From positions 1-35,294 of the forward strand of contig CASEHS010000027.1 of the NCBI GenBank assembly GCA_949287815.1: DNA of 35,294 nt, in the 5' to 3' direction. Source of the stretch: an uncultured Bacillota bacterium (GTDB lineage: Bacteria; Bacillota; Clostridia; Christensenellales; Borkfalkiaceae). Positions 26,109 to 35,294 of this stretch are shown here, piece after piece. Made by a program: the position numbers and the translations under genes. The notes below the pieces were generated by a model, which was not told the origin of the DNA, made no database searches, and saw only the letters and a list, made by a program, of their open reading frames with translations. Every line of letters begins with the position of its first letter. The first letter of the stretch is position 1.

Positions 26109-26149
26109 ATTATACCACAGCCGCGGCGTTTTTACAACGCCGCGGCTGT
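26109..26149. promoter_or_regulatory. Minus-strand promoter interlocked with a 14-bp palindrome/terminator
   Basis: TTGTAA (26132-26137), a 17-nt spacer and TATAAT (26109-26114) drive the minus-strand gene at 26086. The spacer and -35 lie within a perfect 14-bp inverted repeat (ACAGCCGCGGCGTT, loop 5, complement; 26117-26149). On the plus strand the hairpin is followed by ATTTTCTTTTT. It may be a terminator placed over the promoter, or an operator. Confidence 0.55.
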
Positions 26150-26179: not shown

Positions 26180-26811
26180 AAAACATCAAGGCGGTGCGCA
26201 CTTTCTGCGCACCGCCCACCCTTTTGTGGCATTCATCATTTTCATACCGTATATTCCGAAAAGTTTTTCCTTCAAAACCGGTACTTACACTTTTTAACCC
26301 TTTGTGACATCCAGTCGGTTAAATTTCGGTTTCCGAAAAATTTTGCTTTTCCTTTAACGGTCGTTTTAACTCCCCTTAATCAACTCGACAATCCGAAAAT
26401 CCCCCGTACTTTATCGAATCAGAGATTTTATTTTCTTCCGCACGAAAAATTTTCTCCGGACTGAAACCGCTTTCACGGTTTCGGAGCATACAATAAATCC
26501 ACTTAACGAAAAGAGCTCTTCTTCGGTTCAACTCCGCTCCTCCCGCCATTCACCCTTTCGGTTTTTGGCGTCTGCAGACGGAATCACGGAATTTACTTTT
26601 CCGGTTTACCCGTGCCTATCTTCGAAGTCGCTTTTCTTCTTTTCCCGAACTTTCCTTCCCCCGCTTGACACCCTTTATCTTTACGGGATAAAGTCCTGCA
26701 GAATTTGCCTTACAGGTTTTCTACGGTTCGTTCTTTTCCGAAAAACTTCTCTTCCGATCAGCCCGTGCGCCCTTTCAAAGTCAACGCCCGAGTCCTTCTC
26801 TTCTGTTCGTA
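26180..26811 (-). ncRNA. Candidate large structured non-coding RNA (about 630 nt)
   Basis: No minus-strand open frame fills this stretch, yet it is bounded by a near-consensus promoter (26817-26844) and a strong intrinsic terminator (26190-26216). Read on the minus strand it forms many hairpins: CTCCG...CGGAG enclosing AAACCGU-GAAA-GCGGUUU (26454-26486); GCCA...UGGC enclosing a CC-GAAA-GG tetraloop (26545-26569); CTTTATC/GATAAAG (26673-26693); TTTCGG-AAA-CCGAAA (26324-26338); TTTAACC/GGTTAAA (26293-26323); TACCG/CGGTA (26245-26283); and a 5' long-range pairing GGCTACG with CGTAG. GNRA tetraloops and A-rich joints are typical of large ornate RNAs. Length and host fit ROOL or OLE classes, but I cannot match a conserved sequence. 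It is not tmRNA, RNase P or a group II intron by their signatures. Confidence 0.65.
26190..26216 (-). terminator. Terminator of the large ncRNA
   Basis: Perfect 11-bp stem (GGCGGTGCGCA and complement) with a 5-nt loop; on the minus strand TTGATGTTTTTATTT follows. Confidence 0.8.
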
Positions 26812-26893: not shown

Positions 26894-27628
26894 TCAAAAT
26901 GCTTTTACGCCGTACGATTCCAGATACCTGTTGATTCGCGGAAAATCGGTCGGCGTGATCATATTGATAGCTTTCTCTCCCATTACCCCGTTTTCGGTAA
27001 CGATTACCGCCAACAACCCTCTCTTTTCTTCAAAGGCGGAGAACACGTCGTAGACGGTCGTATCCGCGCTCATGACCCGATATTTTTCAAATTCCGAAGG
27101 ATTTAAGATCGCGCCGCATTTCGTTTGGGTGAGAAACTTATTTACGTCTTCCCCCTTTTTGACCCGCTCCGCAATCTCCGAAAACAGACCGTAGGAATTG
27201 ATGACGCCGACCATCTTACCGTGGTCGTAAACGATTAGCGTTTTTTGCCAAGTTTCCGAAAAAGTCGTTACCGCATCGAGCAAGGGTTTGTCCGCAAATA
27301 CGGAAGCCACCTTTTTCATTCGGATCGCTTCATTGATCTTCGGCGGATTGCATAACTGTTTTTCGATATATTCTATGTTTTCCACCACATTATCGCAGGG
27401 ATTGGCGATAAACAACTCCTCTCCCGACGAAGTATGCACGATCGCATTTCTGAGTTTGCCGTAATCGATAAGTTCGTTTTCATACCTTCGCACCGTGATG
27501 TTCAGATCGGTACAGCGTTTCACAAGGTCCGTAAAATTTTGCGTCGGCCGTGCGTTGTACAAGATGCGCAACTGGTTTTCGATACGGTTATAACTTTTCA
27601 GAAATCTCGCAGCATTCTCATATTCCAT
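26894..27628 (-). CDS. HEPN-like / CBS-domain protein
   Basis: 244 residues, soluble. The N-terminal 80 residues are helical and contain YGKLRNAIVH (about 57-66), an Rx4H motif as in HEPN domains, many of which are RNases or nucleotide-binding. From about 105 two CBS repeats follow (VASVFADKPLLDAVTTF...MVGVINSYGLF, then YRVMSADTTVYDVFSAFEE...MITPTDF), which usually bind adenine nucleotides. Such proteins are known in Firmicutes without clear role; a regulated HEPN activity is inference. ATG 27628 is chosen because AAGGAGGGGG lies just upstream, within the longer frame beginning at 27655. Confidence 0.75.
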   Translation of the reverse strand: MEYENAARFLKSYNRIENQLRILYNARPTQNFTDLVKRCTDLNITVRRYENELIDYGKLRNAIVHTSSGEELFIANPCDNVVENIEYIEKQLCNPPKINEAIRMKKVASVFADKPLLDAVTTFSETWQKTLIVYDHGKMVGVINSYGLFSEIAERVKKGEDVNKFLTQTKCGAILNPSEFEKYRVMSADTTVYDVFSAFEEKRGLLAVIVTENGVMGEKAINMITPTDFPRINRYLESYGVKAF

Positions 27629-27653
27629 TCTCTCTTTCCCCCTCCTTGACGCC

Positions 27654-27682
27654 ATTATAACACATTATATGCCCGCTTTCAA
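27654..27682 (-). promoter_or_regulatory. Promoter of the HEPN-CBS gene
   Basis: TTGAAA, 17-nt spacer, TATAAT, giving a leader of only about 20 nt. A second TATAAT occurs inside the spacer. Confidence 0.7.
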
Positions 27683-35190: not shown

Positions 35191-35200
35191 CTTTTTGGAT

Positions 35201-35294
35201 GCGGCAACTACCTATCCTCCCGCGGGGGTAACCCCGAAGTACTTTCGGCGTAAGAGAGCTTAACTTCTGTGTTCGGTATGAGAACAGGTGGATC
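35201..35294 (-). rRNA. 5S ribosomal RNA, 5' end beyond the window
   Basis: The minus strand reads GATCCACCTGTTCTCATACC, then GAACACAGAAGTTAAGCTCT, and ends GGTAGTTGCCGC, which are the loop B/C and 3' helix I sequences of bacterial 5S rRNA. About 94 of roughly 117 nt are present. As the last gene of an rrn operon, it implies 23S and 16S genes to the right on this strand. Confidence 0.95.

Follow-up and report, generated by a model that had tools for sequence, protein, structure and literature searches.

What is encoded by a stretch of some 630 nt on the minus strand of a contig from a gut bacterium of the genus Candidatus Borkfalkia (hereafter Borkfalkia), which holds no credible gene and carries a promoter and a hairpin of its own? 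The stretch lies within a window of 35,294 nucleotides, the whole of the DNA analysed here, and the original prediction placed at 26180-26811 a large structured RNA that would be either a member of the ROOL, OLE or GOLLD families or a new class. Comparison with relatives points to a new class of large, ornate and independently transcribed RNA in Borkfalkia and its relatives, which probably self-assembles. The new class is the part of that prediction that stands, with covariation, promoters at 72 of 73 confirmed loci and no Rfam match above chance; membership in the three known families does not, their covariance models each reaching threshold in 0 of 40 genomes.

Positions 26810-26181 of the minus strand are a non-coding RNA gene with a predicted transcript of 630 nt, whose start is deduced from the -10 element and whose end is deduced from a terminal hairpin; the coordinates of the original prediction were right to ~1-2 bases. 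The claimed promoter TTGACA-N16-TATAAT (26844-26817, minus strand) matches the consensus at 12 of 12 letters and has an extended -10 element (TG). The same promoter precedes the RNA at all 30 loci first aligned and at 42 of the 43 further confirmed loci (10 from Borkfalkia and 33 others), and the sole exception among the 73 is L035, where the contig ends before the promoter site. At 42 of those 43 loci, the distance from this near-perfect promoter to the conserved 3' core described below is 400-630 nt. The AT-rich upstream sequence and promoter block (query 1-45) also match alone on other contigs of genomes from the same genus, and seem to represent a strong promoter type shared in Borkfalkia.

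The GC-rich terminal hairpin (26217-26189, minus strand; 12 pairs, nine of them G-C) is terminator-like and was predicted correctly, while the U-tail claimed with it is interrupted, reading TGATGTTTTT. The hairpin is kept in 29 of the 30 Borkfalkia loci first aligned (the exception is L020), and 34 of the 43 further loci have one within 36 nt of the core, followed by a T-rich tail. Lengths deduced for the 30 first-aligned RNAs range from 620 to 843 nt and are approximate, as the end was set 70 nt past the core in RNAs lacking a T-tailed hairpin within 60 nt of it, and for L020 at the end of its stretch. Just downstream of the RNA, a 14-pair GC-rich hairpin (26117-26149) whose plus-side tail is rich in T may end transcription arriving from the other direction.

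In agreement with the claimed lack of a gene, the longest open reading frame of the RNA from the window, read on its own strand, has 57 aa. Across 73 relatives the longest frame has a median of 77 aa, where mononucleotide shuffles give 49, and this counts against a non-coding RNA. On the other side, substitutions track base pairs, and no same-strand reading frame inside the RNA recurs in at least three of 30 clustered loci. The RNA strand folds at -190.3 kcal/mol (z = -4.5, from 20 shuffles only).

The predicted fold comprises a 5' domain, a 3' domain and the terminal hairpin. The 5' domain (26804-26509, minus strand), delimited by alifold and pair counts, has a long arm of short helices, contains two loops, A and B, and is closed by a long-range helix. 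This helix, foreseen as a 5' long-range pairing, joins RNA positions ~7-14 with ~295-302; 93.6% of its cells are paired and one of eight pairs has two-sided changes. The 3' domain (26502-26226, minus strand) is closed by GUGGAUUUAUUG and AUGAAUGCCAC, the best conserved long-range helix, in which 98.3% of cells are paired over 12 pairs and only one pair shows two-sided changes. As for the GAAA tetraloops that had been described, one GAAA-looped stem is found in the window RNA at positions 329-348, and its loop letters are not conserved among ten close relatives.

Within the 3' domain lies a conserved core (26389-26243, minus strand), marked out by covariation, which reads CGGUAAAGGAAAAG ... UUUAACCGAC/GUC/GGUUAAA ... 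AAGUGUAAGU ... AACUUUUCGGAAUA..CGG and was used to build a covariance model (R1) and a second core model (R2). In an unfitted alignment of 30 sequences, two-sided changes occur in 17 of 30 core pairs, and the covariation score is 0.320 against 0.167±0.009 after shuffling (reached in 0 of 500 shuffles). With 73 sequences aligned by fitting to the model, 27 of the 30 pairs show two-sided changes and the score is 0.459 against 0.193±0.007, again with 0 of 500. Over the full length of ten close Borkfalkia RNAs, the fold has 32 helices with 155 pairs, and 93.2% of cells are paired; 54 of these pairs have two-sided changes, compared with 28.6±3.2 in shuffles, and the score is 0.304 against 0.180±0.007 (0 of 500). 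The shuffles ignore relatedness and column slides do not; sliding the partners by 1-3 columns lowers pairing to 41-47%. Comparison thus establishes the RNA and its predicted secondary structure, and covariation is the decisive evidence. Homologues change in a compensatory rather than a codon-like way, the outcome on which the original prediction had staked itself.

A nucleotide search matched 37 of 37 Borkfalkia genomes, the host's own included, with the match restricted to the promoter end in some (such as G018, G020, G021 and G033); among 24 other families of the order a single one was matched, in the promoter only. The core model R1 matches 70 of 398 genomes of the family, namely 40 of 40 from Borkfalkia, 27 from the sister genus g28, one from g26, and one weak match each in g30 and g27. 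Among 396 genomes of the order, R1 adds four genomes from another family (f32/g87), and a single weak match that is absent with R2. Not every sister-genus genome carries the RNA, as nine of them at 97-99% completeness have no match. In 371 genomes of the class, R2 finds, besides the host's own genome, two weak matches (E 0.0045 and 0.0086) that are at chance level. Two weak loci, L038 (genome G349, E 7e-5) and L039 (G127, unmatched by R2), were left out of the RNA counts and kept among the 35 other loci of the neighbour-gene count below; L035 was left out of the loop counts. Next to its weak core match, L038 has a promoter and a recurring element resembling CCCTCCAACGAACGG..GACGGAGG, and the homologue of the neighbour protein in that genome (49% identity) is on another contig. 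One sister-genus genome carries a second, weaker copy of the RNA (L109, G529:C9). This copy has both promoter and terminal hairpin; loops A and B are not recognisable in it, and the flank in reach holds no HEPN-CBS gene. A core-pattern match in Alkalibacterium was dropped, as we estimate ~1 by chance in the 257 Gb searched and R1 has no real match there. A search of plasmids for the RNA found none.

Scanned against Rfam, the window, the locus (with E up to 10) and 20 of the first 30 loci yielded no family for the RNA, all matches at the locus and in relatives lying under the gathering scores. At the edge of the window a 5S rRNA (35199-35294, minus strand) is cut by the contig end. The host's RNase P RNA (G000:C6, 269 bits) and 6S RNA (G000:C9, 57 bits) are encoded elsewhere and were rejected as identities for this RNA. 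None of the 40 Borkfalkia genomes exceeds the gathering score for ROOL (RF03087; highest score 15.9 bits, on another contig, for a threshold of 99.1), OLE (RF01071; best 12.8 bits, elsewhere, against 50) or GOLLD (RF02032; E up to 1 in 6 of 40, best 15 bits elsewhere against 150), in searches where 14 control genomes likewise gave no match and so provided no positive control. Literature searches on Borkfalkia and non-coding RNA found nothing, and it is on these searches and Rfam 15 that we call the class undescribed.

How might such an RNA assemble? Loop A, with the palindrome CUGCAG (RNA 110-115; 26701-26696, minus strand), lies in a lateral bulge where the long arm has its tip. This site is self-complementary in 40 of 40 Borkfalkia RNAs with six different sequences: CUGCGCAG in 18, CUGUACAG in 9, CUGCAG in 6, CUCGAG in 3, CCGGCCGG in 3 and CCUAGG in 1. 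The palindromes, 8-mers beside 6-mers, fall in two adjacent registers of the alignment, with 30 RNAs in one and 10 in the other, against a baseline for palindromic 6-mers of 1.5% on average over 601 alignment columns. On a maximum-likelihood RNA tree built without the columns of the loop A and B sites, the six types need at least seven changes; CCUAGG (L005) sits on a short branch within the CUGCAG group, and CUCGAG requires two changes. Each of the 34 RNAs whose loop A is not CUGCAG holds its palindrome a single time, which leaves no further copy in cis. Adjacent bases within a chain are unable to pair among themselves, so a palindrome that is kept would mean pairing between two chains, an argument that passages of PMC12286853 apply to OLE and GOLLD. 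The calculated A x A duplex has -11.2 to -22.7 kcal/mol in all 40 RNAs and is stronger than A x B in 39. Alifold places a 3-pair mini-hairpin, devoid of two-sided changes, inside loop A; with the 2-pair hairpin that the consensus fold has in loop B, it counts against loop contacts. We consider it rather likely that the RNA is a homo-oligomer through A x A, and the palindromes make the remark on multimers in the original prediction an apt one.

Outside the genus the strict palindrome is not kept in most relatives, and loop A finds its complement in loop B. In the window, loop B (CGUCUGCAGACG; 26580-26569, minus strand, with CUGCAG at 26577-26572) lies for the most part in a lateral bulge of 9 nt on the stem that follows. 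Of the RNAs outside Borkfalkia, 32 were compared (without L035, L038 and L039), and in 28 of them loops A and B are complementary over 7-8 bases, wobbles included; in the other four (L036, L037, L104 and L109) the two loops were not both found. The loops change together, as UCUGCGGG/CCCGCAGA (11 relatives), UCUGUGGA/UCCACAGA (6), UCUGUAGG/CCUACAGA (4) and others. For the 27 relatives used in the energy and pair statistics (without L111), Watson-Crick pairs fill 98.1% of A x B cells against 81.9±2.1 in shuffles (0 of 2000), and sliding by 1-3 columns leaves 18-41%. The search patterns for these loops permit only some letters, which inflates shuffled pairing (standard pairs reach 91%), so that the Watson-Crick comparison is the fair one; the number of A x B pair types is no higher than in shuffles. 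A x B is stronger than A x A in 23 of the 27, with the reverse in L084, L085, L089 and L090. At the level of predicted pairing, the alignments show a self-complementary loop A in Borkfalkia and, for most relatives beyond the genus, a loop A that complements loop B.

Within Borkfalkia, loop B is CUGCAG in 28 of 40 RNAs and something else in 12, being CUGCGAACG or CUGAGAACG in seven of the nine with CUGUACAG as loop A. There A x B has -2.3 to -4.5 kcal/mol in 14 of 40 RNAs and -6.5 to -15.8 in 26. The contact would cross 31 predicted pairs (one within loop A), 18 of which have compensatory changes, and it would therefore be either a pseudoknot or an inter-chain contact. In a tree of 35 neighbour proteins, those whose RNAs carry CUGCAG in loop A and loop B alike fall basally in the sister clade and within one clade of Borkfalkia, which is what a bridging state would predict; the deep forks are moderately supported (82-86), and the outgroup does not form a single clade.

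The upstream neighbour of the RNA (26894-27655, minus strand) codes for a protein of 253 aa, a candidate partner that has a CBS domain (PF00571) and a probable N-terminal HEPN domain. Within the fetched flanks the gene is found at 31 of 40 Borkfalkia loci and 31 of 35 others, three of the latter from the other family, and in all 62 of these 75 it is upstream on the RNA strand. From the end of the gene match to the core there are 460-849 nt, which puts the end of the gene near the promoter of the RNA, and identity to the window protein is 53-75% over the loci, partial copies included. Eight of the nine Borkfalkia genomes without the gene nearby have an orthologue (60-66%), the ninth (G014) a paralogue only. 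In four genomes (G003, G009, G022 and G036) the orthologue shares contig and strand with the RNA at a distance of ~4.5-6 kb upstream, so that ABC-transporter-like reading frames seem to stand between gene and RNA; such frames are seen directly upstream of the RNA, on the same strand, at L010, L015-L017, L021, L023 and L026. In a sample of 80 genomes of our choosing, comprising these nine and 71 others without a clear RNA (including G349 with its weak match), a homologue of at least 50% identity occurs in 0 of the 71 and one of 35-49% in seven. The conserved neighbourhood may reflect shared ancestry.

The N-terminal 103 residues have HEPN_RiboL-PSP as their sole Pfam match, below the cut-off (E 0.028); a neighbour protein from the other family gives E 8.6e-4, also below it. 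HEPN domains are helical, ~100 residues long and marked by an Rx4-6H motif. The N-terminal part is a probable HEPN RNase domain, and its LRNAIVH (Rx4H) is invariant in 12 of 12 neighbour proteins and kept at 30% identity in a protein from a contig labelled Listeria phage. Passages of PMC3710099 describe the Rx4H-type motif for HEPN domains, and report HEPN-CBS fusions for which nucleotide control of RNA stability is suggested. A HEPN-CBS-like gene of 40-43% identity is found elsewhere in each of the nine Borkfalkia genomes that lack the gene near the RNA (L157, L163-L170), with no promoter of 12/13 letters in the 225-1509 nt examined downstream. At L156 (G434:C7, reverse strand 943-1) a 13/13 promoter follows a 42% identical HEPN-CBS homologue, and more than 850 nt of purine-rich sequence extend past it, in which R2 finds nothing significant; a stretch recurring by eye near the contig end is not listed by Tandem Repeats Finder. 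A further large RNA associated with this protein family may lie here.

An RNA that stays monomeric would have the A/B pairing of the sister genus as a pseudoknot in cis, and the Borkfalkia palindrome for another reason, for example as the site of a symmetric protein dimer on RNA or DNA. A x B does fit within one chain; CUGCAG in both loops permits it in six of 40 Borkfalkia RNAs (mean -12.6 kcal/mol), and partial pairing at -6.5 to -12.5 is available in the CUGCGCAG group except L119. Six distinct palindromes speak against a sequence-specific protein, however, and the 14 RNAs in which A x B is weakest (CUCGAG 3, CCUAGG 1, CUGUACAG 8, L112 and L119) contrast with an A x A of -11.2 or stronger in every one of the 40, so we regard the monomer as unlikely. 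A diverged ROOL, OLE or GOLLD RNA would share the size, the Bacillota host, the ornate fold and the loop-loop contacts, and Rfam models could miss very distant kin; yet no model exceeds its cut-off in the 40 genomes (with the proviso on controls given above), the locus is unmatched by those models at E up to 10 and the neighbour is a CBS protein, and we hold such descent to be very improbable.

The remaining explanations turn on the neighbouring genes. The presence of a probable HEPN protein beside the RNA would suit a type III-like toxin-antitoxin pair, with the HEPN-CBS protein as RNase toxin and the RNA as antitoxin. Type III antitoxin RNAs consist of short tandem repeats, and a Tandem Repeats search at score 30 finds none in this RNA; moreover, the gene lies upstream, the RNA has its own promoter, the protein has no PADLOC entry and, unlike a mobile toxin, it is conserved at 53-75% identity and accompanies the RNA throughout the genus. 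Such a pair seems to us quite improbable. The position of the RNA between two genes on the same strand could also suggest a cis-acting leader or 3' UTR, but its own promoter at all but one of the confirmed loci and a terminal hairpin at most of them argue for a separate unit; the 194-aa gene downstream in the window recurs at one of 40 genus loci, and the ABC ATPase is present somewhere in the fetched stretch at 21 of 40, so a role in cis has next to no likelihood.

We therefore return to a self-assembling RNA and put the probability of the explanation as a whole, a new homo-oligomeric RNA class that scaffolds the HEPN-CBS protein, at about 0.65. Copies of the RNA would bind through loop A with loop A, as a symmetric loop-loop duplex that yields a homo-oligomer. 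This one self-contact would give a symmetric dimer; where loop B is palindromic as well (CUGCAG, 28 of 40), there would be two self-contacts per chain, and larger assemblies could form. In the sister genus A would pair with B, within one chain or between chains, and CUGCAG in both loops would permit both contacts and so bridge the two states. By a weaker inference, the oligomer would serve the neighbouring CBS protein as a scaffold, the two forming a ribonucleoprotein to which we give about even odds. In that particle the HEPN domain would bind or cut RNA, the CBS domain would sense an adenine nucleotide, and the RNA would anchor or restrain an RNase that responds to the nucleotide; nucleotide control of the unit is a tentative suggestion, and we think it doubtful. 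Equally speculative is the idea that the family switched its quaternary symmetry during evolution, from a heterologous A-B contact (ring-like or in-chain) to an isologous A-A contact by way of CUGCAG, with the particle both scaffolding and controlling a nucleotide-sensing HEPN-CBS ribonuclease. If true, a symmetry-switching RNA particle with its HEPN-CBS protein would add a new type to the RNA-protein units that act in signalling. The evolutionary series, in which a loop pairs with another loop or with itself, makes the contact testable by a few base swaps, and a conserved neighbour that combines a probable RNA-cutting fold with a domain of nucleotide-sensing type offers a handle on function.

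The protein resembles the HEPN-CBS fusions of PMC3710099 in joining HEPN to CBS domains; passages of that paper present the fusions without a partner RNA, whereas the protein here adjoins a large one. Two traits of homo-oligomeric large RNAs recur at this locus, an ornate fold supported by covariation and, in Borkfalkia, a palindrome kept through sequence changes. The RNA is like ROOL in being large and ornate with loop-loop contacts, and passages of PMC12286853 recount that a ROOL contact was first a covarying tertiary pair and was later shown to be inter-chain. It differs in having no covariance-model match over the cut-off in 40 genomes and no confirmed match in IMG/VR, either for one core pattern of the RNA (0 matches) or in a protein search with its neighbour. 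OLE is known to be linked to oapA. At about 600 nt, OLE dimerises via a symmetric palindromic loop and works with proteins, and passages of PMC12286853 describe how its palindrome switches from GGCC to GAUC or AGCU. The palindrome here is 6-8 nt long with six forms, loop A pairs with another loop outside Borkfalkia, the neighbour is a CBS protein and the OLE model has no match. The self-interacting kissing loops that passages of the same paper report for GOLLD have a counterpart here in loops predicted to self-interact, and the RNA differs from GOLLD in that its model finds no match and no phage setting was seen. As presented in passages of PMC12286853, OLE, ROOL and GOLLD are three self-assembling large bacterial RNAs with poorly understood functions; if confirmed, the RNA of Borkfalkia and its relatives would be a further self-assembling class, unrelated to these three.
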